The position numbers and the translations under genes were made by a program. Source: Prolixibacteraceae bacterium (GTDB lineage Bacteria; Bacteroidota; Bacteroidia; Bacteroidales; Prolixibacteraceae). Taken from it: DNA of 64,000 nucleotides. Numbering within the stretch: the stretch's first letter is position 1; each line of letters starts with the position of its first letter. Below are positions 8,464 through 64,000 of this stretch, one piece after another. Under the pieces are notes generated by a model, which saw only the letters and a list, made by a program, of their open reading frames with translations, ran no database searches and was not told where the DNA came from. The stretch is taken from NCBI GenBank assembly GCA_019459525.1, contig JAIBEY010000093.1, positions 1-64,000 on the forward strand. Reading direction: 5' to 3'.

Positions 8464-9201
8464 ATGGAAAAACCAGGTATGATTCCACATTTTGATGACC
8501 CCATCGGAAGAGCAGTTTACGATTATCATTTCAATTCCATCAACCAACCCATAATTGTTCACTCCAACGATTTTGATGACGATAGTATTGAGCCTGCCTA
8601 TCTGTTCAGGACACACAAACAGATGCCTGTTCTGGAAAAAAAAGCCATGACTTTATGCCGTGGAGCTATTCTGGATGTTGGTGCCTGCGCAGGGTCACAC
8701 TCTGTTTACCTTCAGGAAAAAGGATTCGATGTCACCGCTCTCGAAACATCAGAGCTCTGCTGCGAGGTTCTGAAAAATCGCGGTCTCAGGAAAGTTATCC
8801 ATCAGGACATTTTCAAATTCAACAATCAATCTTTCGATACCATTATACTCCTGATGAACGGGACCGGAATTGCCGGTTCGCTCAAAGGTCTTGATGTAAT
8901 GTTGCATCACCTCAAAACCTTACTCAATCCGGGAGGACAGATTTTGATCGACTCGTCGGATTTAATTTATTTATTTGAACAGGAAGATGGTTCTGCGCTG
9001 ATTGACATTGCTGCTGATAATTATTACGGAGAACTCATATTTCAAACCGAATATAAAAACTGGACAAGTCAACCCTTTCCGTGGCTATATGTTGATGTGG
9101 ATAATCTGAAGAATTCGGCCGAAAAAAATCAGCTCCGACTGGAAAATCACTTTAAAGGGCAGCATTACGATTACCTTGCCCGAATAACCCACCAATTATG
9201 A
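8464..9201 (+). CDS. Class I SAM-dependent methyltransferase
   Basis: A 245-residue methyltransferase. The SAM-binding motif I is ILDVGACAGSHSVYLQEKG (about 71-89), with the acidic end of beta2 in DVTALETSE. Motif IV corresponds to DTIILLMNGTGIAG, and the post-motif segment GGQILIDSSDLIYLFE follows. The N-terminal 65 residues are family-specific. The protein is soluble. The 3' end overlaps the DUF4954 start by four bases (ATGA), indicating translational coupling. The substrate cannot be read from sequence. Coupling to DUF4954 and nagB hints at amino-sugar or cell-envelope metabolism, which is inference. Confidence 0.85.
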   Translation: MEKPGMIPHFDDPIGRAVYDYHFNSINQPIIVHSNDFDDDSIEPAYLFRTHKQMPVLEKKAMTLCRGAILDVGACAGSHSVYLQEKGFDVTALETSELCCEVLKNRGLRKVIHQDIFKFNNQSFDTIILLMNGTGIAGSLKGLDVMLHHLKTLLNPGGQILIDSSDLIYLFEQEDGSALIDIAADNYYGELIFQTEYKNWTSQPFPWLYVDVDNLKNSAEKNQLRLENHFKGQHYDYLARITHQL

Positions 9202-50807: not shown

Positions 50808-51388
50808 AAATATCTTGGGACTCTGGCCTTGTATTTTCGGTATTCGTCGCCAAATTCATTTTCAAGAAATTTTTCTTCTCCTAAAATAATGAAATGGTGT
50901 ACGATCATTCCGTACAACATCACAATCAGGAGCAAAACACTGGGAAGGAACAAAAAAGTAGCTGTATTCATAAAAAAGAAACTGGCATACATGGGGTTAC
51001 GACTGATTTTATAAATGCCACCGGTACGCAATTCATGTTTACCAGTAGGCAATCCGATATTGGTTATCAAACCCATTGAAAGGTAGGCCGGAACGATAAT
51101 CAGATTGGCGGGAATCAGAAAAACGGCTGCCAGCAATTTTTGAACATCCGGGGTGTAATCCTGAATTAAGTAGGGTACTGAATTGCGGTATTCAGGAAAA
51201 ACAGATACTACACCAAACAAAGCCCAAACGCCAAAAAGAAAAAACTTTCCGGTATAAAACAAAACTGGCTGAATGGTTGGTTTGCCCATTGCCTGCTTTC
51301 CACTCTTTGCCAAAAAAGCGCCCAAAACAAAAGTTGCCAAAATGGGCAAACTGATTAAAACAGCCAACGTATAATCAATCCAATTCAT
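50804..51388 (-). CDS. Isoprenylcysteine carboxyl methyltransferase family protein
   Basis: A 194-residue integral membrane protein of the ICMT/PEMT superfamily, with hydrophobic segments at about 7-27, 46-66, 88-108 and 140-160. The methyl-donor motif at the C-terminal side is GIYKISRNPMYASFFFMN (about 128-145), and the end is LENEFGDEYRKYKARVPRYF, as is usual. In bacteria these enzymes methylate lipids or small membrane substrates rather than prenyl-Cys. It is coupled to the Cu/Zn permease gene by a TGATG overlap, which suggests joint function in metal stress, an inference. Confidence 0.85.
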   Translation of the reverse strand: MNWIDYTLAVLISLPILATFVLGAFLAKSGKQAMGKPTIQPVLFYTGKFFLFGVWALFGVVSVFPEYRNSVPYLIQDYTPDVQKLLAAVFLIPANLIIVPAYLSMGLITNIGLPTGKHELRTGGIYKISRNPMYASFFFMNTATFLFLPSVLLLIVMLYGMIVHHFIILGEEKFLENEFGDEYRKYKARVPRYF

Positions 51389-52716
51389 CAGATGGTTCCT
51401 TTATATTGATAGCCCAAATCGATCACAATCCGCTCAATTTCAGGCAAATTTATCTTTGACCCCTTAATTTTCACCTGCGAAGTGTTTTTATCAGCTACCA
51501 CTTCTTCAATACCTTCTATTTTCGAAAGGTTGCGGTTTATACTGGCTTCGCAATGCGAGCAAGTCATGCCTTCCACTCTGATCGTTTGAAATTTTTCAGC
51601 TGTCATTTTCTTATTTTTTTGAATTCGGTTAGTCAAATATCCGGCTACGATTAAAACGGCCAACAGTACAGAAGAAACAATTCCGACCCATTTGGGGAAC
51701 ATTTCGTGTGCTTCGCCATGCGCCATCAGGTGATTCATTTTACTCAGCAAAAAGTCGGCTGGAATAAGCCAATTGGTGAGTAACCAAAAAAATATAGCTC
51801 CGCCGATTATCGACCCCAGGTAAATGAACAATGACTTTCGGCCCATCGTTTTACCAATTACAGTTATTGTTGCTACGTTGGTAGCCGGACCAGCCATCAT
51901 AAAAACCAGCGCGGCACCAGGAGAAACGCCTTTCATGAGCAAAACTGCGGCGATTGGGATAGAACCGGTTGCGCAAACATAAATAGGAACTGAAGCGGCC
52001 AATACCACCAGAATTTCAATAAAACCGTAGCCTTTAAACATGCTGAAAAAATCAGGAGGCAACAAAACCGAGATTAATGCAGCAACCAAAAAGCCAAGAA
52101 TCAACCATTTGGCAATATCCTGAAGCAACTCGACAAAAGCATAGTTGGCTGCAAGTATGAGCGGATGAAGATCTTTTTGGGGAGGTTCGTGACAACCGCA
52201 AGAGTCGTCGGCACAGGTTTCCGTGGCTTTTCCCAATTTCGCCGCGTCAATTTTGAAACTGCCAAACTTTGAATTAACGGGTGGAGCAACTACTTTGGAT
52301 GGTTCTTTGATCAGTAAATTGGTTAAGACTCCCCCAAAAATACCGGTCGTAAAAGCAACAATTGGTCGAAGTATTGCAAAAGGCCACCCAAGCATGGAAT
52401 AGGTTGCAAAAATGGAATCGACCCCGGTTTGCGGTGTCGAAATCAGGAAAGAATTGGTAGCCCCTTTTGAAGCTCCGTTTTTGTAAAACGAAATGCCCGT
52501 GGGAATTACCCCGCAGGAACAAAGGGGCATAGGAACTCCAAGTAAAGACGCATTTACTGCCGACTTAAAAGTTGACTTGCCCAAATATTTATCGATGTGT
52601 TTCTGCGGAAAGTAAATCTTTAACAAGCCGGCAAAAACCAATCCCAGCAATAACCACGGAGCCATTTCTCCAACCAAATAATACAGTTCCGAAAAATACC
52701 TGACCACATATTCCAT
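51388..52716 (-). CDS. SO_0444-type Cu/Zn efflux permease with HMA domain
   Basis: A 442-residue membrane exporter with a C-terminal heavy-metal-associated domain. I start at 52716 because AGGAGG lies about 8 nt before that ATG and relatives begin similarly (YVVRYFSELYYLVGEMAPWL); the longer frame adds 31 residues including a possible membrane segment. Family signatures: SLLGVPMPLCSCGVIPTGIS, STPQTGVDSIFATYSMLGWP and AGPATNVATITVIGKTMG. A His/Cys-rich loop, CADDSCGCHEPPQ, is cytoplasmic. The HMA domain has the metal Cys pair in VEGMTCSHCEASINRNL. It exports copper/zinc-type metals. It is coupled to the ICMT-like gene. Confidence 0.9.
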   Translation of the reverse strand: MEYVVRYFSELYYLVGEMAPWLLLGLVFAGLLKIYFPQKHIDKYLGKSTFKSAVNASLLGVPMPLCSCGVIPTGISFYKNGASKGATNSFLISTPQTGVDSIFATYSMLGWPFAILRPIVAFTTGIFGGVLTNLLIKEPSKVVAPPVNSKFGSFKIDAAKLGKATETCADDSCGCHEPPQKDLHPLILAANYAFVELLQDIAKWLILGFLVAALISVLLPPDFFSMFKGYGFIEILVVLAASVPIYVCATGSIPIAAVLLMKGVSPGAALVFMMAGPATNVATITVIGKTMGRKSLFIYLGSIIGGAIFFWLLTNWLIPADFLLSKMNHLMAHGEAHEMFPKWVGIVSSVLLAVLIVAGYLTNRIQKNKKMTAEKFQTIRVEGMTCSHCEASINRNLSKIEGIEEVVADKNTSQVKIKGSKINLPEIERIVIDLGYQYKGTI

Positions 52717-52900
52717 CACCCGTCCTCCTAAAATTGGTGTCTTTATAAACCGATCTATTGTCAACAAAAGTAATACAAATAGAAACATAGAATTATCTGT
52801 ATATATCAATTAAAAATTAACCTTTATAAATTGATACTTCGATTCTCCATGAATGTCAGGCGGATAATGATTCTTGAGCAATAAATGGACCCACTACACA

Positions 52901-52968: not shown

Positions 52969-54276
52969 TTATATTTCTGAATACCATTTAATCTGTTGAG
53001 ATACCCGCATGATGATAGCCAGAATAACAAACAGCCCAATGCTTCCGGCCAGCAGTGCATAATCCTGCAATTGCAAAATGGTGAAAAGGAAAATGTACAA
53101 CCCAATTTGAAGCAAACTTACCCACGCAACCAGCCGCACATTTTTCAGGATGGAATACGAATACCACGAAATGAGCGAAGTCACCGCAACCGATGAAATC
53201 AAATAAGCCCAGTTGAAACCGGTTTGCTCGCCGATAGAAGTGAGTAAAGCGTAAAAGATAAGCAACGCAAAAGCAACCAGCGAATATTGAAACGGGTGCA
53301 TCCTGGTTTTGCTTTTAATTTCGATGAAAATGAAAATGATGAAATTAAGTGCGATAAACAAAATGGCATATTTCACCGAGCGCATCGATTTTTGGTAATG
53401 ATCGATTGGAATGAGCAGTTGAACCCCCAAAGTTGCTTCGTGCGTGTTGTATTTCCGGTCAACCCATTGCTGCGGAAAATTACGGTTCAGGTGAGTCACC
53501 AACCAGTTGGCTGTAAACCCATTGGCTGTAACATTACGGTCTGAAGGAAGAAACCCTCCGGTAAAACTGGGTGATGCCCAGTCTGATTTTATATTAACTT
53601 CTGATGTTTTACCCAATGCCTCCACCGACAAGTCTTCAGAGCCGTTTAAAACCAGTTCAATCTCGAAGTTCATTGGCTGGTTCAAATCAATTCCATCAGC
53701 CTTTACGGTGATTCCTGATTGAAACAAATCGGTGTCAGCCACTCCCGGATCGACCTTACTTTTTTGACCATTAATAACCAGTTCGGGCAGATTTTTAATG
53801 CCACGCATATCCGAAATGCCCATAGTAAAATACGCTGCATCCCAATTATACTGGGCATTCGGAACATCCAACTGCGAAACGTCGGGTTGAGCAAAAGTGC
53901 CTTTCTGCCTGATCCGGCCTTCGTAAACCACCACTTCGTAAATACCTCGTTTGCGCTTTTCAGGAGCCAGGGAACCATCTGTGTTTAACGTTTCGGGCAA
54001 AAAATGGGCAATACCATGCCGTTCAATCACACCTTGGTTATTCTCATTTTGCTCCTGAACCGAAAACGGAACATTGAGCACCGGACCGGCTACCACCTGC
54101 TTGCTGCCCCATTGCGCATAGAGTTCATTTTTTACTTTTTCGCTGAGTGCAATCCGCTCGTTAATAATGTCCATAATTAAAAAGGACGGAATCAATAGCA
54201 AAATAGCCAGTCCCGAAACGATGATCATTTTCACACTGTAACTGTTCATGAATTGTTGAATACCTTTTGTTTCCAT
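52969..54276 (-). CDS. creD: CreD inner-membrane protein
   Basis: A 435-residue inner-membrane protein of the CreD family, linked elsewhere to envelope stress and colicin tolerance; biochemical function unknown. N-terminal segment VKMIIVSGLAILLLIPSFLI is followed by the family motif IINERIALSEKVKNELYAQW and VAGPVLNVPF. A large periplasmic domain (about 45-290) is followed by five or six membrane helices up to about residue 425. It follows an HTH_34-type regulator gene with a palindromic operator in the 53-bp gap, so it is probably the regulator's target. Confidence 0.92.
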   Translation of the reverse strand: METKGIQQFMNSYSVKMIIVSGLAILLLIPSFLIMDIINERIALSEKVKNELYAQWGSKQVVAGPVLNVPFSVQEQNENNQGVIERHGIAHFLPETLNTDGSLAPEKRKRGIYEVVVYEGRIRQKGTFAQPDVSQLDVPNAQYNWDAAYFTMGISDMRGIKNLPELVINGQKSKVDPGVADTDLFQSGITVKADGIDLNQPMNFEIELVLNGSEDLSVEALGKTSEVNIKSDWASPSFTGGFLPSDRNVTANGFTANWLVTHLNRNFPQQWVDRKYNTHEATLGVQLLIPIDHYQKSMRSVKYAILFIALNFIIFIFIEIKSKTRMHPFQYSLVAFALLIFYALLTSIGEQTGFNWAYLISSVAVTSLISWYSYSILKNVRLVAWVSLLQIGLYIFLFTILQLQDYALLAGSIGLFVILAIIMRVSQQIKWYSEI

Positions 54277-54293
54277 TGTTTTAATTTTTTAAA

Positions 54294-54315
54294 AGTACTT
54301 TGAATTACAAAGTTT
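54294..54315. promoter_or_regulatory. Palindromic operator, copy 1 (before creD)
   Basis: AGTACTTTGAATTACAAAGT is an imperfect palindrome (ACTTTG...CAAAGT), located in the 53-bp gap between the regulator and creD, 18 bp before the creD start. A near-identical copy lies at 55977-55998. It is the probable binding site of the HTH_34 regulator. Confidence 0.7.
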
Positions 54316-54329
54316 ATGAATAAAAAAAT

Positions 54330-54626
54330 TTATTGATTGCCAATCAATTCTTCCAGGGCAGACAGATGCTGGCGAAACAAGTTCTTTCCAAGATCTGTTG
54401 CCCGGTAAGTAGTACTGGGTTTCCGGCCAACGAACTGTTTGGAAACGACAATAATCTCCTGCTGCTCCAAAGCTTTCAGGTGACTGGCCAGATTCCCATC
54501 GGTCAGCTCAAGTAAGTCTTTCAGGGCATTGAAATCGAGCGTGTCGTTCACCATAAGTGCCGACATGATTCCAAGCCTGATGCGGCTTTCAAATACTTTT
54601 TGAAGATTCGATATTGGGTTTTTCAC
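54330..54626 (-). CDS. HTH_34-type winged-helix regulator
   Basis: A 98-residue winged-helix DNA-binding protein of the HTH_34 (MarR/ArsR-like) type. The recognition unit is DFNALKDLLELTDGNLASHL (about 31-50), then a wing with VSKQFVGRKPSTTYRATDLG (about 60-79). Such small regulators in this phylum sit next to creD or to polytopic membrane genes, as here. It probably represses its own operon and creD through the ACTTTG..CAAAGT site. The gene is on the minus strand between a hypothetical membrane protein and creD. Confidence 0.87.
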   Translation of the reverse strand: MKNPISNLQKVFESRIRLGIMSALMVNDTLDFNALKDLLELTDGNLASHLKALEQQEIIVVSKQFVGRKPSTTYRATDLGKNLFRQHLSALEELIGNQ

Positions 54627-57124: not shown

Positions 57125-58393
57125 TTATCCTATTTCACGGGTGATTGAAATGGCAGCAATGGTTCCATCGGCAATGGCTGTGGTAATCTGCCTGTACTTT
57201 TTGCTGGTCACATCGCCCACGGCAAACACGCCATCAATGTTGGTGCGTTTATCCTCATCCGTTTTGATGTAGCCCCACTGATCGAGCTCAAATTGATTGT
57301 TGAATATTTCCAGATTGGGTTTTAGACCGATGAAAACAAAAATACCATCGGCAGTGATCGTTTTCATCTCTTTGGTTTTCACATCCTCTACCTCAACAAT
57401 CATTTTATCTCCGTCCTTTTTAATTGCACGCGGTTCGTGCGATAACATGAACGAAATCTTGGGATTGGCAAATGCTTTTTCCTGTGCGGTTTTATTGGCC
57501 TGAAGTTGGTCGAACTGGTGCACGATGGTGATTTTGGAAGCAAACTTCGAGATAAAATCAGCTTCTTCGATGGCCGAATTTCCGCCGCCAACAACAATCA
57601 CTTCCTTGTCGCCAAAATATTTGGCATCGCAGGTAGCGCAATACGAAATTCCTTTTCCGCGGAATTCGACTTCTCCGGGAATGCCCATTTTGTTAGGCGA
57701 AGTTCCGGTGGCTACAATAATTCGTTTGGCGCGGATGGTTTCCTGGCTGTCAATGGTAATTTCCTTTTTCAGAAGATCGACTTTAGTTACGTCAACCGCC
57801 ACTTTATAGGTTGTTCCGCATTGTTTGGTTTGTTCCGACATGTTGTGCCCGAGCAGATATCCGGGCTGCGGATCAATAAAACCGGGATAGTTCGACACCA
57901 TATGAGTAGTTGAAACGTATCCGCCGGGAAGCGCAATATCAATTAAAACAGTATTTATTTTTGCCTGACACAAATACAATCCGGCAGTCAAACCGCCCGG
58001 GCCAGCCCCTAAAATAGCCACATCAACATCGGTAACAAAAGGCTGCTGTGTTGCCATTATTTCAGTTACTTTTTCTTTACCAAGAACGTGTTTCAGTTCG
58101 CGGACAATTTCGGAGCGCTTAACGCCACCCGCCAAACGTCCGCAAACCTCTTCCCCATCCTGATAAAACAGAAGTGTTGGTGAGCTTTTTACTATTAACT
58201 TATCAGACAGCTCGCGGTTTCCCTGACGAAAAATCTTCACAAATTTGATTTCTTTTCCGAAAAGCTTTTCAAGACCTTCCAGTTTGGGTGCAATAGCCTC
58301 ACATGGAGCACATTCGGTCGAATAAAAATCAACCAATACGTTTCCACCGTTTAGTACTTCTTTTTCGTAATCTGCTTCAACTATTTCTTTCAT
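57125..58393 (-). CDS. trxB: Thioredoxin-thioredoxin reductase fusion
   Basis: A 422-residue fusion. N-terminal thioredoxin domain (about 1-105) has CAPC (C28, C31) in FYSTECAPCEAI in place of the common CGPC. The C-terminal thioredoxin reductase has the FAD motif AILGAGPGGLTAGLYLC (about 125-141), the redox pair in SYCATCDAKYFGDKEVIVVG, and the closing GVFAVGDVTSKKYRQITTAI. I start at 58393 (MKEIVEADYEKEV), 10 nt from the radical SAM gene; the longer ORF start lies inside that gene. The fusion keeps thiols reduced in the cytoplasm. Placement after a radical SAM peptide maturase and a Cys-containing small gene suggests it serves that system. Confidence 0.88.
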   Translation of the reverse strand: MKEIVEADYEKEVLNGGNVLVDFYSTECAPCEAIAPKLEGLEKLFGKEIKFVKIFRQGNRELSDKLIVKSSPTLLFYQDGEEVCGRLAGGVKRSEIVRELKHVLGKEKVTEIMATQQPFVTDVDVAILGAGPGGLTAGLYLCQAKINTVLIDIALPGGYVSTTHMVSNYPGFIDPQPGYLLGHNMSEQTKQCGTTYKVAVDVTKVDLLKKEITIDSQETIRAKRIIVATGTSPNKMGIPGEVEFRGKGISYCATCDAKYFGDKEVIVVGGGNSAIEEADFISKFASKITIVHQFDQLQANKTAQEKAFANPKISFMLSHEPRAIKKDGDKMIVEVEDVKTKEMKTITADGIFVFIGLKPNLEIFNNQFELDQWGYIKTDEDKRTNIDGVFAVGDVTSKKYRQITTAIADGTIAAISITREIG

Positions 58394-58403
58394 GGTGTAT
58401 AAT

Positions 58404-59705
58404 TTATTCGTTAAAATAATGTCCAATTCCAAGTTCCAGCAATTCAGTTACCGGACGGCAATCGTGGCTGTTCAGTGTTCCGTTGTAGTTCTTGGCCATC
58501 GATGCACAGCCCCCGCCACAAATCAGGCTCAGGTTGCAACTTTGGCATTTTGGGATCGATAAAATATCACGTTCCTGCCATTCCTCAACAGCTTCGGTAT
58601 TTTTCCTGACTTCAGGATAAAAAGTACCGAGACTTTCGCCCTGTTTCCCCACTGTAGCCGTGCAGGCATAGACGTTTCCTGTGAAATCGAAGGCCCATTC
58701 AGTTTTAGTTCCGGTGCAGGCATCAAAAAGAGGTGCGGGCATTTCGACCTGTTCGAACAAAAATTTCGCAACAGAAAATGCAGGTTTATGGAATTCGCTG
58801 ATGTAAGGAAATTTATTCAGCAAATTGTATAAATCCTGATACAATTCGAGCCGCGAATAAAGCTTTTGCTGGTTCGCCTGGCATTCGTGCAGTTCGTAAT
58901 TCCGGCCCAATTGGGTTTTGAATAATGGCGAGGCAGTCCAACCTTTATCTATGGCAAACTGAGCCAAATCAGGCAGGTTGTTGATATTTTGTTTGTCAAC
59001 TACCATGCGTAAATTGACCGGAATATTGTTTTCCATCAACAAGTCAACCCCGCGAACAATGCGGTCGAAAGTCGGGTTGCCGCCTTTCAGGTAACGACGC
59101 TGGTTGTGTGTTTCGCTGGTTCCATCGAGTGTCACCTGAATTTCGCGGATAATGCCCTTTTTCAAAATCGGAATGTATTCTTCCAGATTGTATCCGTTGG
59201 TAACCGCGGCAATTTCGAGATTCAAAGCGCTCGCCCGTTCAATAATGTATTCGATGTTTTCCTTGTGGCGCGGGGCATTCATAAAAGGTTCGCCACCAAA
59301 AAGGGTAATGTATTTTCGTCTTCCTGAAAACTCTTTCTGGATATACTCAAAAAACGAGTCGGTCACTTCTTTCGACAAAGCAACAGGTAAGGCCTCGTAA
59401 CCTGCCTGATAGCAATACGAGCAATCGAAATTGCACGAATAGTTCGTCACAAAGAAGATTTGAACTTCATCCTTCTCACGGTCGTCCAGAAACTTCAGGT
59501 ACTTTTCGCGGAACAAACGTGTTTCCTGAGCCGGATCAACGATGTAGCCATTTTCGATCAGTTCCTGATTTGTTTCGTCAATCTGGTGTAATTGTTCGAA
59601 GGTTTCCTGATCGAGAATATCGGCTTGCCCCGACAATGAATTCACAATGAACCAATTGTCAGAGTCTTTAATTTTTGAAGTAATGTTGTATTTGGAGAGT
59701 TGCAT
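58404..59705 (-). CDS. Radical SAM/SPASM peptide maturase
   Basis: A 433-residue radical SAM enzyme. Residues about 1-80 look like a winged-helix peptide-recognition (RRE-like) domain (YNITSKIKDSDNWFIVNSLS). The radical SAM cluster Cys are C91, C95 and C98 in SCNFDCSYC. TLFGGEPF and TLDGTSETHNQRR are barrel motifs. The C-terminal SPASM region has Cys pairs in ACTGTKTEWAFDFTGNVYAC and PKCQSCNLSLICGGGCASMA, with a last Cys in SHDCRP. Such enzymes modify ribosomal peptides (for example thioether or C-C links). A 31-codon Cys gene lies 116 nt upstream on the same strand. Class not assigned. Confidence 0.9.
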   Translation of the reverse strand: MQLSKYNITSKIKDSDNWFIVNSLSGQADILDQETFEQLHQIDETNQELIENGYIVDPAQETRLFREKYLKFLDDREKDEVQIFFVTNYSCNFDCSYCYQAGYEALPVALSKEVTDSFFEYIQKEFSGRRKYITLFGGEPFMNAPRHKENIEYIIERASALNLEIAAVTNGYNLEEYIPILKKGIIREIQVTLDGTSETHNQRRYLKGGNPTFDRIVRGVDLLMENNIPVNLRMVVDKQNINNLPDLAQFAIDKGWTASPLFKTQLGRNYELHECQANQQKLYSRLELYQDLYNLLNKFPYISEFHKPAFSVAKFLFEQVEMPAPLFDACTGTKTEWAFDFTGNVYACTATVGKQGESLGTFYPEVRKNTEAVEEWQERDILSIPKCQSCNLSLICGGGCASMAKNYNGTLNSHDCRPVTELLELGIGHYFNE

Positions 59706-59712
59706 GGAAAAA

Positions 59713-59808
59713 CTGATTAGAGGTTAACGATTAGAGATTAACGATTATTGATTTTCAGATATCGAAATACTTCTTCAATCATCAATCGTTAATCGTTAAT
59801 CATCAATC
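59713..59808. repeat. 7-bp-word array with inverted arms in front of the maturase
   Basis: Left arm: CTGATTA, GAGGTTA, ACGATTA, GAGATTA, ACGATTA, TTGATTT. Right arm: TTCAATC, ATCAATC, GTTAATC, GTTAATC, ATCAATC. The arms are complementary, so the whole gap between the 31-codon gene and the maturase can form a long imperfect hairpin. Confidence 0.7.
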
Positions 59809-59821
59809 AACTTTAAATGCC

Positions 59822-59917
59822 TTAATCGTGGCATCCGGCAATAATCTGTGATTGTTTAGCACAGCATTGTGCCTGTTTAACCTGACCCTTACGGGCTTTC
59901 TTCACTAAACTTTTCAT
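59822..59917 (-). CDS. Candidate RiPP precursor peptide, 31 aa
   Basis: A 31-codon frame, ATG at 59917 to TAA at 59822. The first 16 residues are basic, with Lys/Arg at 2, 6, 7, 9, 10 and 14 (MKSLVKKARKGQVKQ is the leader). The second half is AQCCAKQSQIIAGCHD, with C18, C19 and C29. A basic leader plus a short Cys-bearing core directly before a radical SAM/SPASM maturase on the same strand is the usual arrangement of modified peptides. There is no clear Shine-Dalgarno, as usual here. It could still be a chance ORF, so conservation across relatives is the key test. Confidence 0.6.
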   Translation of the reverse strand: MKSLVKKARKGQVKQAQCCAKQSQIIAGCHD

Positions 59918-60010
59918 TTCGAGAATTTTGTATGGATTAAACTATAGAGAATAAAAGTACTTTAAATGAACCAAAGTTCGAAATAAAATACTCTCAGACT
60001 TTTCAAAAAA

Positions 60011-60087
60011 ATATCCAAGACTGAATACTCAATACCCAATATCCAAATTTATTGTGTGAGACTTGGAATCTGAAACTTGAAACTCGA
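60011..60087. repeat. Two 7-bp-word arrays between peptide gene and methyltransferase
   Basis: 60011-60045: ATATCCA, AGACTGA, ATACTCA, ATACCCA, ATATCCA. 60060-60087: GACTTGG, AATCTGA, AACTTGA, AACTCGA. The second array abuts the stop codon of the methyltransferase gene (60089). The stretch 59918-60010 is otherwise A/T-rich; a single AGTACTTT half-site lies at 59956-59963. Confidence 0.6.
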
Positions 60088-60088
60088 C

Positions 60089-60730
60089 TTAACAGCAACT
60101 AAATTCGTCTTTCTTAGCAGTAATCGTAAAGCTCGACACTTCAATTTTGCCTTTCGGATAAGGCAGGCTTTCTTCCAGAATCCTGAAATCTTTAAAACCG
60201 GTTCGTTTAATAATTTCAATGTATTCTGCTTTGGTAATCGAACCTGCCCAACATTCGGCTACAGCTTCCGGGTCGTTGGCATATTCTTCAGGTACTGGTT
60301 CGCTCGAATAAATATCACTGATCACAAACCGTCCACCATTTTTTAGCAAACGGTAAATTTCAGCCCAGACTTTGGGTTTGTTGCTTACATGGTTTAATGT
60401 GCAGTTTGAAATGATCAGATTCGCAATTTCGCTTTCCAAGGGAATTTGTTCCAGATCGGCCAAAACAAATTTCACGTTCTCAACTCCCATTTTGTCGGCT
60501 GTTGCTGTTGCTTTACGAATCATTTCGGCAGTAACATCAACTCCATAAACAAAACCAGTTTCGCCAACGTCTTCAGCCAGGCGCAAAACATCAGTTCCAC
60601 GACCACTTCCCAAGTCGATACAAACCTCCCCGGTTTTTGCTTCGCTCTTTTGAGCCGCTCCTCCACACGACAAACAGCAAGTGTCGTTGGCCAATGCAGA
60701 GTATCTTCCAGCTATTTCAATTGTGTTCAT
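60089..60730 (-). CDS. ArsM-like SAM methyltransferase
   Basis: A 213-residue methyltransferase close to arsenite methyltransferase. N-terminal Cys pair and partner: NDTCCLSC (18, 19, 22). SAM motif I is CIDLGSGRGTDVLRLAEDVG (about 37-56), then VYGVDVTAEMI. The arsenic-binding Cys positions of ArsM have counterparts in LIISNCTLNHV and AVAECWAGSI. It ends with another Cys pair, FSCC. ArsM converts arsenite to methylated arsenicals using reduced thiols. It is upstream of the peptide gene, maturase and thioredoxin fusion on one strand, so either a stand-alone arsenic enzyme or a tailoring enzyme of the peptide system is possible. Confidence 0.8.
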   Translation of the reverse strand: MNTIEIAGRYSALANDTCCLSCGGAAQKSEAKTGEVCIDLGSGRGTDVLRLAEDVGETGFVYGVDVTAEMIRKATATADKMGVENVKFVLADLEQIPLESEIANLIISNCTLNHVSNKPKVWAEIYRLLKNGGRFVISDIYSSEPVPEEYANDPEAVAECWAGSITKAEYIEIIKRTGFKDFRILEESLPYPKGKIEVSSFTITAKKDEFSCC

Positions 60731-61333: not shown

Positions 61334-61927
61334 ATGATACATCCAGTCCTTAAGTTTTTGGCAGAACAACTAAATACCTATATCGAAGAGGTGAAAAAAC
61401 CTGGCGATATTCTTGAAGCGCCTTACGTTATCCTTCAGAATATTTCGAGGCTGGATGAGGATGCGGTTAAAACAACCAATAGAGTTCTGATTTCTCTGGT
61501 GAATATTTCAGAAGAATCGACCATGAAAAATAACCCGGATTATGCTTTGACCAGAAACAATCTGGTCAATTACAGCAATCCGCCAATCAACCTGAACTTG
61601 TTTATCATGATTACGTCATTCATGACAAATTATGAAAATGCACTCATTTACCTTTCTCATGCCATCACATTTTTTCAGGGCAAATACTCTTTTACATTAA
61701 AAGACAGCACCACTGAAGTGGAAGGTTTGCCTGATGATTTCCACATTATCCTCGACCTGTACAATCTTGGTTTTGAACAATTAAACTATGTATGGAGCAC
61801 TTTCGGCGGGAAGCAACATCCGTTCGTTTGTTTTAAGGTCAGGCTGATTAAAATGGAACGAGAAAGTACACGAGAAATTCATGGAGTTATTAAAGAAGTA
61901 CAGATTGATGGTCGAAATAAAAAGTAA
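61334..61927 (+). CDS. DUF4255 / Pvc16-like tail-terminator protein
   Basis: A 197-residue DUF4255 family protein, the cap (tail terminator) of extracellular contractile injection systems (Afp16/Pvc16) and some R-type tailocins. The core starts MIHPVLKFLAEQLNTYIEEV and has the family strand PYVILQNISRLDEDAVKTTN (about 29-48), NPPINLNLFIMITSFMTNY (about 83-101) and DFHIILDLYNLGFEQLNYVW (about 133-152). It begins an operon with an unknown protein and a tail sheath on the same strand, which confirms the assignment. The protein has no signal peptide, as expected for a particle that assembles in the cytoplasm. Confidence 0.9.
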   Translation: MIHPVLKFLAEQLNTYIEEVKKPGDILEAPYVILQNISRLDEDAVKTTNRVLISLVNISEESTMKNNPDYALTRNNLVNYSNPPINLNLFIMITSFMTNYENALIYLSHAITFFQGKYSFTLKDSTTEVEGLPDDFHIILDLYNLGFEQLNYVWSTFGGKQHPFVCFKVRLIKMERESTREIHGVIKEVQIDGRNKK

Positions 61928-61956
61928 GGTATAAATCATGTAAATCAAATTACCCA

Positions 61957-63165
61957 ATGAGTCAGATCCTTCTATACAAAAGTCTTTTCGAGGTAAATAT
62001 CCTGCACCATTTCTTCCTGAATAAAGGAGAACAGGAATGGGACAAGATGAGTCAGGAGGACAAAGATAGAATGGAATCCAAATCTGACATTCGGGAGATT
62101 TTTGATATAATACCAACGCAGGAAAGCACAAAGGCGCTGAGTTCACATAACTGCATTTTCAAAAAAACAGCCACGGGTATTTTGGTGGGCATTAAGGCGA
62201 AACCTGACGAACTAAATCCGGGGAAGTTCAACTCTTTTGTTCCGCTGGCTGATAATCTGACATTCCGGTTTCTGGTTAAACTGAAAGATTTGAATTTCAT
62301 GAACTACACCGCACTTCCGTTACAGGGAAACCAGGACAAAATATTCGTATTCAGCAACAGTCTGAACATTACTTCGAATACTTTTCCTTCGCTAAGCGCC
62401 ATTCCTCCTGTTTTTAAACCGGGGAATACGTATTTGCCAGGCGATATGCTTTCAGATAATGCCAATAACCCAACGAAATTATTTACAGCACTTGTAAAAA
62501 CCGGCAATAACCCTACCCTATCTGCTGACTGGCTCACCGAAAATGGAAATATCACTACACCCCTGAGTTATGTGAATGTGAATGACAGTTATCCGGTTGC
62601 AAACGGATTTTTCACTTATACCATGAAGGTGAAGGATGCAAAACCAATTGCAACTATGAAGAATTCATCGGGTTTCACGATTCAGCCTAAAATGGAAGTT
62701 CTTCCAGGCGACTTTCAAACACTGCAGGTTGATCTGTTAAAATATCCGCAGGGAATCTATTCCATCCATATCGATAGCGATGACCCGACTTATAAAGACG
62801 ATATTACCTTCTATCTTCTTCAGGGAAGTGAAACACCGTTCGCACTAATCGAAATCAAGGTAAAAAGTAAACAGTCCGCATATGATTTGTTTAGTCAGGG
62901 CAATTTGCTTTCGCCCACCTACGAAATTCGGTTCCGCAACCGGCGCACGCATTGGCGCTATTTGGGAAAACTTTTCAATCCACCATATGTGCTCGAAAAT
63001 CCACTGCCACTTACCCGCTACGGCAATATTGAGATCATGAAACCTCCCGAACCGGAAGATACCAAAACGATTATGCTTCCTAATCCATCGGTTAGCTTAA
63101 TAAAAGCTGAAGCTTTAATCCATACGGAAGAGAAAAAATACTATTCAGAAATTCATATTAATTAA
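61957..63165 (+). CDS. Unknown contractile-injection-system protein, 402 aa
   Basis: An unrecognised 402-residue soluble protein between the DUF4255 and sheath genes. The N-terminal part (about 1-40, VNILHHFFLNKGEQEWDKMS) is helical and acidic. From about 60 it is beta-rich with Asn-, Pro- and Gly-rich loops (KPGNTYLPGDMLSDNANNPT, PYVLENPLPLTRYG). Strands such as QGIYSIHIDSDDPTYKDDIT look like an immunoglobulin-like or fibre domain. There is no catalytic motif. Position suggests a structural or baseplate/sheath-linked component special to Bacteroidota systems, possibly host-contact or anchor related. Real gene by context and codon use. Confidence 0.75.
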   Translation: MSQILLYKSLFEVNILHHFFLNKGEQEWDKMSQEDKDRMESKSDIREIFDIIPTQESTKALSSHNCIFKKTATGILVGIKAKPDELNPGKFNSFVPLADNLTFRFLVKLKDLNFMNYTALPLQGNQDKIFVFSNSLNITSNTFPSLSAIPPVFKPGNTYLPGDMLSDNANNPTKLFTALVKTGNNPTLSADWLTENGNITTPLSYVNVNDSYPVANGFFTYTMKVKDAKPIATMKNSSGFTIQPKMEVLPGDFQTLQVDLLKYPQGIYSIHIDSDDPTYKDDITFYLLQGSETPFALIEIKVKSKQSAYDLFSQGNLLSPTYEIRFRNRRTHWRYLGKLFNPPYVLENPLPLTRYGNIEIMKPPEPEDTKTIMLPNPSVSLIKAEALIHTEEKKYYSEIHIN

Positions 63166-63183
63166 TTTTAAACAGGAAATCAC

Positions 63184-64000
63184 ATGGCAACTACTTACAA
63201 AACTCCCGGTGTTTTTGTCGAAGAAATCCCCAAATTACCACCGTCTGTAGCCCAGGTTGAAACAGCATTACCTGCTTTTGTCGGCTACACAAATAAAGCA
63301 GACGAAATCGCTCCCGGCGATTTGATCAACAAGCCAAAACGAATTGGGTCATTGGTTGAGTTCGAACAGTTCTATGGAACGGGCCCATCGCCTGAAGTTA
63401 CGGAGGTAAATATTGACAGCAATAACAATTTTACTTCTGCCACTGTAAAAAACACATTCTTCATGTACGACTCGCTGCGCATGTTTTATGCCAATGGCGG
63501 CGGCGATTGTTACATTGTTTCTGTAGGCAAAAGCGAAAAAGCTACAACTATTTCAAAGAGTAATTTTACTACCGGCATTGATGAGTTGCGTAAAGAAGAT
63601 GCACCAACCATCATTTTATTTCCTGATGCAGCAACATTGGGAAATTCTGAACTGGCAGAAGTTCAGCAGGCTGCATTGTTACAATGTGCCGATCTGGGCG
63701 ACCGTGTCGGACTTTTTGATGTAAAACAAGATGATCCGCTGGGAACCAATTTCAGGAACAATATTGGCATTAACAATTTAAAATACGGCGCTGTTTATTC
63801 GCCCTGGCTAAAGGTAAACCTACCCAAAGCAATTAAATACACCGATGTAAAAAGTGTGATCAAACGGGCAGGCATTTCCGTTCCGCTTTCAGGCCTTACT
63901 TCCGATGTTGAAGTTCAGGGTTTAATCACTGAATTGGAACAGGCCTATGCGGATGTGGCCAATATTGAAACTAAAACAAAGGTTTTAAGTCCACCCAACG
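63184..64000 (+). CDS. Contractile tail sheath protein, 3' end cut by window edge
   Basis: The first 272 codons of a tail sheath (Afp/PVC and phage-like sheath family). The start is the ATG at 63184. The N-terminus TYKTPGVFVEEIPKLPPSVA with TALPAFVGYTNKADE (about 4-40) is the sheath handshake arm. A YANGGGDCYIVSVG segment (about 104-117) and DAPTIILFPDAATLGNSELA are family-like, and LKYGAVYSPWLKVNL follows. Sheath subunits polymerise around the tube and contract to drive it through the target membrane. The rest of the gene, and further genes of the system, lie outside the window. Confidence 0.9.
   Translation, partial: MATTYKTPGVFVEEIPKLPPSVAQVETALPAFVGYTNKADEIAPGDLINKPKRIGSLVEFEQFYGTGPSPEVTEVNIDSNNNFTSATVKNTFFMYDSLRMFYANGGGDCYIVSVGKSEKATTISKSNFTTGIDELRKEDAPTIILFPDAATLGNSELAEVQQAALLQCADLGDRVGLFDVKQDDPLGTNFRNNIGINNLKYGAVYSPWLKVNLPKAIKYTDVKSVIKRAGISVPLSGLTSDVEVQGLITELEQAYADVANIETKTKVLSPPN

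Follow-up and report, generated by a model that had tools for sequence, protein, structure and literature searches.

The closest described systems are those of the ranthipeptides and SCIFF peptides (CteA-CteB, Tte1186a and the PapA-PapB pair of freyrasin), in which a short cysteine peptide is encoded beside a radical S-adenosylmethionine (SAM) enzyme with a SPASM domain. Ranthipeptides are defined by six cysteines within about 45 residues or by Cys-X3-Asp repeats (PMC8172795), and the bonds given for them include Cys32-Thr37 in SCIFF and Cys-X3-Asp in freyrasin (PMC8172795; PMC8326336). Here we describe a related but distinct gene set in a stretch of 64,000 nucleotides (nt) from a Prolixibacteraceae bacterium (assembly GCA_019459525.1, contig JAIBEY010000093.1, positions 1 to 64,000), referred to throughout as the window. 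On its minus strand lie, in this order, genes for a methyltransferase resembling the arsenite methyltransferase ArsM, a 31-residue cysteine peptide, a radical SAM/SPASM enzyme and a thioredoxin-thioredoxin reductase fusion (Trx-TrxR), with gaps of 171, 116 and 10 nt. The 31-codon gene is real. Its cysteine peptide is very likely what a so far undescribed peptide-modifying system acts on, and that system may handle elements similar to arsenic.

The window locus resembles the ranthipeptide and SCIFF systems in pairing a short cysteine peptide with a SPASM enzyme, in the similarity of that enzyme over the radical SAM-SPASM region, and in an invariant hydroxyl residue of the peptide core at the i+4/i+5 acceptor spacing. 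It differs from them in having three core cysteines and a single Cys-X3-[ST] instead of six cysteines or Cys-X3-Asp repeats, in a maturase that scores far below the curated cut-offs, in its nearly constant association with an ArsM-like methyltransferase and Trx-TrxR, and in its occurrence in Bacteroidota, Spirochaetota and Myxococcota (the last by record title). A radical SAM enzyme is also encoded with, or works with, ArsM in the arsQML (arsinothricin) and ArsM-ArsS (arsenosugar) pathways, but ArsL there acts on a small molecule, forming a C-As bond, and the portion of PMC8552651 used here names no precursor peptide; the radical SAM enzyme of the window, in contrast, resembles peptide maturases and is accompanied by a peptide gene. 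The skf sactipeptide cluster likewise has a putative thioredoxin gene, skfH, next to its maturase and precursor genes, yet its product is the sporulation killing factor and, as described in the relevant part of PMC8172795, the cluster contains genes for a protease and for export but none for an ArsM-like enzyme or TrxR. In the open-access literature we found no paper on this gene set or on the peptide motif, and one may exist elsewhere; a survey of clusters for ribosomally synthesized and post-translationally modified peptides (RiPPs) in Bacteroidales (PMC10352776) mentions neither thioredoxin nor any word with arsen- in its main text. What appears to be new, therefore, is the partner set of a radical SAM/SPASM RiPP-type system, which we have not found described.

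A near-invariant cysteine peptide

An earlier note, made from the letters of this DNA, had pointed to a hidden 31-codon frame with a cysteine-bearing end on the same strand as, and 116 nt before, the maturase gene. This open reading frame (ORF), which translates as MKSLVKKARKGQVKQAQCCAKQSQIIAGCHD followed by a stop codon, is borne out by conservation at the amino-acid level across phyla. Peptides ending in AQCC[AST]Kx[ST]xxxxGCHD are present, within the stretch of sequence taken around each maturase, at 116 of 125 distinct loci inspected, so the short cysteine gene that the RiPP interpretation called for beside homologous maturases is indeed found there. These peptides are 30-52 residues long, 100 of them are distinct, and their core aligns across phyla without gaps as A-Q-C-C-[AST]-K-x-[ST]-x4-G-C-H-D-stop. 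The pattern QCC.K.[ST]....GCHD, required at the C-terminus, was used to count loci, so its positions are constant partly through the way in which matches were selected; the alanine at core position 1, present in all 100 distinct peptides, lies outside the pattern, and the profile searches for the peptide did not use it.

The loci come from several samples. A scan of one genome per species yielded 65 loci with a maturase relative, and whole-genome maturase searches matched 44 of 140 genomes in the family of the window, 6 of 395 sampled from its phylum (the window's own genome included), 24 of 195 in the phylum of locus L060 (Myxococcota by its record title) and 33 of 247 Spirochaetota (the phylum of L027). 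Our table of 129 records comprises the window, all 65 scan loci, three loci from family genomes and 60 fetched stretches, the last representing 11 of the 44 family, 4 of the 6 window-phylum, 17 of the 24 Myxococcota and 28 of the 33 Spirochaetota matches, with a 29th Spirochaetota genome being that of L027. Seven Myxococcota and four Spirochaetota matches stand outside the table, two of which (L155 and L164) also have the peptide. Removal of four duplicates with identical last 200 maturase residues (L077, L078, L185 and L193) left the 125 distinct loci.

All nine loci without a peptide have an explanation. Five (L062-L066) are cut by a contig edge inside the maturase, the genomes of three others (L175, L177 and L178; genomes G091, G079 and G093) encode the peptide elsewhere, and in L021 unrelated sequence (positions 1-560) stands in place of the start of the maturase as far as the radical-SAM motif. 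The replacement in L021 may be an insertion or a misassembly, and no peptide was found in its genome, G007.

Substitution in the 31 codons is not random-like. When the window is compared with its close copies L002-L018 (18 sequences in all), no amino-acid change occurs in the last 17 codons, with a proportion of synonymous differences (pS) of 0.274 and of nonsynonymous differences (pN) of 0, while the first 14 codons are variable (pS 0.44, pN 0.10); for the whole peptide, pN/pS is 0.13. The precursor is thus bipartite, with a variable leader and a conserved core (alignment A2). The N-terminal part is basic, with a median net charge of +4, and starts with MKSL, MKSV or MKLL in 78 of the 100 distinct peptides. 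An additional CC or CxC occurs in the otherwise variable linker of 45 of the 100.

Given this conservation across phyla and the absence of nonsynonymous change in the core, we reject a chance ORF. The gene lies upstream of the maturase on the same strand at 105 of the 116 loci, downstream at 4 and on the opposite strand at 7; these varied positions argue against a general role as cis-regulatory leader of the maturase gene. A phage or plasmid module was likewise rejected, as 28 viral matches are at most 33% identical over the best segment and the listed plasmid matches reach about 28% or less. Three of the peptides matched no NCBIfam model, and four searched against Pfam matched nothing beyond one chance hit (BTK, E 0.33). 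A gene too short for usual ORF lists stands, nearly unchanged, at the heart of a module that is conserved in three phyla (by record titles) and has no named family in the NCBIfam release searched.

Co-occurrence of peptide, maturase and partner genes

In the 140 family genomes the maturase was found in 44 and the peptide, in a separate profile search, also in 44; 43 have both and 95 have neither. This count leaves out one weak peptide match (G054, E 0.0014) with an internal stop. The two discordant genomes go one each way: G007, with its disrupted maturase, has no peptide, and G086 has a peptide and no maturase match. Similarly, among the 247 Spirochaetota genomes, 33 have the maturase, 34 the peptide and 32 both; in the two that seemingly have the peptide only (G917 and G952) the maturase is cut at a contig edge beside the peptide, and in the one that seemingly has the maturase only (G794) the first part of the maturase is cut off at a contig edge. 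One genome, G090, has the methyltransferase and matches neither maturase nor peptide. After its methyltransferase (L274, about 8600-8800) stands an ORF, MNSLIKKKGKPKVANFKYEECNKFL, with a leader-like start (MNSLIKKK...) and no cysteine core, a probable decayed precursor. The core is thus lacking from both G090 and G007, where the maturase is missing or disrupted.

The partner genes are nearly as constant. Flanks of 1.2 kb or more upstream and 2.5 kb or more downstream are available for 101 distinct loci. Using hidden Markov models built from the loci themselves for the methyltransferase, Trx, TrxR and DUF1847, and scoring a member as present within 9 kb on either strand, we found the peptide at 99 of these, the methyltransferase at 97, and Trx and TrxR each at all 101, with all four together at 97. 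Pairwise divergences across 105 loci correlate at 0.92 for maturase and methyltransferase, 0.91 for maturase and TrxR and 0.85 for methyltransferase and TrxR, values that are inflated by shared ancestry. In a sister group of loci with lower maturase-profile scores, the peptide gene may follow the maturase and directly precede Trx, or it may lie on the opposite strand. One genus (L280/G091, L277/G079, L278/G093 and L176/G092) can have the half formed by methyltransferase, peptide and DUF1847 about 10 kb from the half formed by maturase, Trx and TrxR, or on another contig, and G092 (L176) carries two peptides.

The maturase scores best with SPASM peptide maturases, below the cut-offs of the models listed

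The earlier note's call of a radical SAM/SPASM maturase holds. The radical-SAM CxxxCxxC motif (C91/C95/C98) and seven SPASM-type cysteines (330, 348, 387, 390, 396, 400 and 416) are invariant in 21 sequences (alignment A1). Their spacing (C330, G343-x4-C348, C387xxC390x5C396xxxC400, C416) follows the seven-cysteine pattern that we take as diagnostic of a SPASM domain, and Pfam reports Radical_SAM and Fer4_12 only (E <= 1). The nearest solved structure is 5wgg, which we take to be CteB; profile A1 matches it across the radical SAM-SPASM region with 70.8 bits.

Among the best 25 of 78 NCBIfam models, the highest scores belong to maturases of cysteine peptides: CefB, a Cys-every-fifth maturase (156.9 bits over residues 1-433, cut-off 600), TIGR04463, a C-rich peptide maturase (132.8 bits over residues 18-401, cut-off 525), PapB (119.8, cut-off 340) and Clo7bot (117.6, cut-off 600). 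The SCIFF model gives 87 bits (cut-off 425). None of these 25 models reaches its cut-off, five diverse relatives of the maturase fall equally far below the cut-offs of the models listed, and the window peptide lacks the Cys-every-fifth pattern; membership in the ranthipeptide (PapB, SCIFF), CefB or TIGR04463 families was accordingly rejected. Nor is the maturase placed in a known non-peptide class, since the best models are all SPASM peptide maturases.

A shortened ArsM with the arsenic ligands in place

Against the arsenite methyltransferase model PRK11873/NF008823 the methyltransferase scores 189.6-190.0 bits, short of the cut-off of 263, and the copies in the 44 family genomes score 162-197 bits; none of the best 25 of 71 NCBIfam models reaches its cut-off. 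It is 37.6-39.9% identical over 165-194 residues to five canonical ArsM proteins from the same bacterial family. In alignments to PDB chain 4kw7/4fr0, presumably CmArsM, its Cys22, Cys110 and Cys160 correspond to Cys72, Cys174 and Cys224. In CmArsM these three cysteines are the As(III) ligands and all are needed for methylation of iAs(III) (PMC3877260). Across 118 methyltransferase records, in which duplicates were kept, C22 is conserved in 115, C110 in 118 and C160 in 117. The earlier note had described an ArsM-like enzyme with cysteine pairs at both ends; the ArsM likeness stands, whereas the C-terminal pair, found in only 34 and 38 of the 118 records, is not a feature of the family, and it is the three ligand positions that are near-invariant. 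By these alignments the enzyme is a shortened ArsM, here called mini-ArsM, that keeps the three arsenic-ligand cysteines.

Its surroundings differ from those of ordinary arsM genes. Three of five canonical arsM genes inspected are immediate neighbours of acr3, a fourth is 2.8 kb from it and the fifth far away, whereas the window genome carries acr3 on a different contig.

Thioredoxin fusion and recurrent neighbours

As the earlier note had it, a fused Trx-TrxR gene begins 10 nt past the maturase stop; the 435-residue ORF from 58432 owes its length to a mechanical TTG start, and the ATG lies at 58393. The window copy has CAPC in Trx and CATC in TrxR. CATC recurs in 118 of 120 records, and the two domains are fused in 107 of the 120 (93 of 94 in the main group, 14 of 26 in the sister group). 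Among Trx active sites the form [YF]S[TS]EC[PA]PCEA is the commonest, with YSDDC[IV]PC or similar in a few sister-group copies.

Other neighbours were read from the 40 most frequent neighbour clusters per survey, and ten clusters were run against Pfam. At some Bacteroidota loci, rhodanese, a CoA-disulfide-reductase-like/rhodanese fusion and an SQR-like flavoprotein recur by eye, and DUF302, a YgaP-like transmembrane protein, DUF6132 and DUF1847 by Pfam; at a few other loci DUF5714, an SQR-like flavoprotein (Pfam: Pyr_redox_2) and a sulfur transporter recur. DUF1847 accompanies 32 of the 101 loci, every one of them in the main group. By eye, no gene for an exporter, a protease or immunity was seen to recur widely among the listed clusters; one ABC-ATPase cluster occurs at 4 of 60 loci, about 5 kb away.

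Two placements were recorded in passing. The DUF1847 gene (PF08901) lies between the maturase and Trx-TrxR in L002-L007, L011, L016, L017, L019, L020 and L030 and is missing from the window, and we found no open-access paper on this family. A DUF5714 gene lies upstream of the methyltransferase at four loci (L225 and three others).

Proposed function and alternatives

These data support the earlier note's interpretation of the locus as a RiPP system, its thioether and metalloid chemistry being a prediction from the genes. We propose a conserved RiPP-type system of cysteine peptide, maturase, mini-ArsM and a Trx-TrxR relay driven by reduced nicotinamide adenine dinucleotide phosphate (NADPH), probably cytoplasmic and plausibly acting on a thiophilic metalloid, a reading for which we consider the chances about even. 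The maturase would recognise and bind the N-terminal MKSLxKK part of the peptide and modify the core, most likely by forming a cysteine thioether; a thioether is suggested because the invariant Ser/Thr at core position 8 follows Cys3 and Cys4 by 5 and 4 residues, which are the donor-acceptor spacings of SCIFF and freyrasin. The Trx-TrxR relay, drawing on NADPH, may keep the remaining peptide cysteines, or those of the methyltransferase, reduced. By pedigree, the mini-ArsM would methylate a thiophilic metalloid, arsenic or similar, which the modified Cys/His/Asp peptide could hold or hand over. This metalloid element is proposed because the ligand cysteines are conserved and because Trx and TrxR are named, with glutathione, as supporting the arsenic methyltransferase AS3MT in vitro (PMC9013690). 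An internal carrier or cofactor seems likelier than an antibiotic or secreted compound, since the core is near-constant and no widely recurring exporter or protease was seen among the neighbours. A bolder version holds that this is the first RiPP for metalloid chemistry: arsenic or a similar element, held by a Cys3-His-Asp peptide that the radical SAM enzyme has modified, would serve a mini-ArsM dedicated to that peptide as substrate or cofactor, and the peptide would be recharged by NADPH through Trx-TrxR and be shared by three phyla independently of ordinary arsenic resistance. We offer this version tentatively and think it doubtful.

Several observations weigh against the proposed system. 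Both the peptide modification and its substrate are predicted from genes, and one family genome that is 64% complete (G086) carries peptide, methyltransferase and DUF1847 on one contig while no maturase was found. The RiPP recognition element (RRE)-like N-terminus that the earlier note saw in the maturase is weakly supported: faint matches to the N-termini of two kinds of maturase, FlmE/OhkG (for 11 of 17 members, best E 4.3e-4) and CefB (3 of 17, best E 1.5e-4), are in its favour, but the N-terminal 85 residues have no PqqD/RRE match in Pfam or PDB profiles. The methyltransferase, for its part, lacks the N-terminal segment of canonical ArsM, with its CC motifs, and a C-terminal stretch, and its family has NCxxNH where the five canonical proteins have NCVLNL or NCVINL. 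Genes of sulfur type, moreover, are recurrent neighbours at some loci. At the genome level, Acr3 is found in 40 of 44 maturase-positive versus 82 of 96 maturase-negative family genomes, and canonical ArsM above its cut-off in 25 of 44 versus 53 of 96, as tallied by hand from the search listings. Given such near-equal shares, the cluster does not follow ordinary arsenic resistance, and a plain arsenic-resistance operon was rejected. No ars resistance genes were seen by eye among the listed neighbour clusters, where arsR, arsC and arsB were not searched by profile. The metalloid idea thus draws support from the conserved arsenic-ligand cysteines and none from any association with acr3 or canonical arsM.

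The lack of any such association also fits a RiPP system of the same kind that works without a metalloid, in which the ArsM-like enzyme is a thiol methyltransferase acting on a peptide cysteine or capping the product, and Trx-TrxR either supplies the radical enzyme with reduced peptide thiols or has the finished peptide as its redox partner. Indeed, AS3MT methylates the sulfur of its own Cys33 and Cys62 even when arsenic is absent (PMC9013690), the methyltransferase of these loci is shortened and altered at the NCxxNH motif, and thioredoxin genes are known from sactipeptide clusters, skfH being one (PMC8172795). We nevertheless judge this explanation unlikely. A plain thiol methyltransferase would not need the three arsenic ligands that are kept here, a point that is not decisive because the same AS3MT cysteines are required for automethylation, and Trx, TrxR or NADPH alone did not raise that automethylation (PMC9013690). 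The sulfur-type neighbours raise another alternative, in which the modified CC/C core carries sulfane sulfur or persulfide between rhodanese or SQR-type enzymes and Trx-TrxR. Rhodanese, the CoA-disulfide-reductase-like/rhodanese gene and SQR-like genes, seen by eye, and DUF302, YgaP-like, sulfur transporter and DUF1847 genes, assigned by Pfam, do stand beside some loci, but they accompany only part of them, as the DUF1847 count illustrates, against 97 of 101 for the ArsM-like enzyme, and we find this alternative quite improbable.

Two further explanations dispense with either the modification or the cytoplasmic role. With three invariant cysteines, a histidine and a C-terminal aspartate, the peptide could bind metal unmodified, as a small metal- or metalloid-binding protein, or its gene could be a cis-acting leader ORF, with the maturase acting elsewhere; modification is indeed a deduction here, and neither Pfam nor PDB profiles detect an RRE. 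The almost perfect co-occurrence of peptide and maturase, the varied positions and strands of the peptide gene, and selection that acts on amino acids while leaving synonymous change free make this very improbable. An exported antimicrobial or signalling RiPP akin to ranthipeptides or SCIFF finds some encouragement in the best-scoring maturase models, which include ranthipeptide and other cysteine-peptide systems, and in the quorum-sensing role given, in a table with reference, for SCIFF ranthipeptides (PMC8326336). We give it hardly any credence: the listed neighbours hold no widely recurring exporter, protease or immunity gene beyond the occasional ABC-ATPase, the core is nearly constant across phyla, and methyltransferase, Trx and TrxR are almost never missing. 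Should the metalloid reading hold, it would join RiPP maturation to arsenic biochemistry; if not, the locus would still represent a new type of cysteine peptide with its own redox relay.

Features of the window

The window genome (5.54 Mb, 116 contigs) has one peptide match and one maturase match (E <= 1e-40), and maturases 95-96% identical to the window copy occur in records labelled Prolixibacteraceae or Bacteroidetes/Bacteroidota. Table 1 lists the features of the operon.

Table 1. Coordinates of the operon features in the window and the evidence for each.
Feature	Position	Strand	Evidence
ArsM-like SAM-dependent methyltransferase, 213 aa	60089..60730	-	ORF list; NCBIfam PRK11873, 190.0 bits vs cut-off 263; PDB alignment
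31-residue precursor peptide MKSLVKKARKGQVKQ-AQCCAKQSQIIAGCHD	59822..59917	-	Translation; profile searches; selection analysis
Basic N-terminal part (MKSLxKK and variable linker), presumed leader, codons	59873..59917	-	Alignment A2; selection analysis
Near-invariant 16-residue C-terminal core AQCCAKQSQIIAGCHD, codons	59825..59872	-	Alignment A2; selection analysis
Radical SAM/SPASM peptide maturase, 433 aa	58404..59705	-	Pfam; NCBIfam; alignment A1; PDB profile
Fused thioredoxin (STECAPCEA)-thioredoxin reductase (CATC), 422 aa, from ATG 58393	57125..58393	-	ORF list; Pfam; NCBIfam

Scans for promoters and terminators gave counts within one standard deviation of shuffled sequence, and an Rfam search returned 0 matches. 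Part of the gap between peptide and maturase (59715-59809) consists of imperfect short tandem repeats with units of 7 and 14 bp. Divergent from the operon, the region 61334-64000 on the plus strand encodes a protein with a Pvc16_N domain (PF14065) and, recognised by eye, a tail-sheath-like ORF at 63184; the two form the start of a contractile injection-type cluster, and this synteny is kept at several loci of the same genus. Some kilobases from the operon, the minus strand encodes a Cu/Zn efflux transporter of the SO_0444 family (51388-52809), which passes its cut-off (386 bits vs 300) and ends in an HMA domain. CreD is paired with a winged-helix HTH_34 regulator at 52969-54626 on the minus strand, and this pair follows the operon at 11-12 of the 65 loci of the one-genome-per-species scan.

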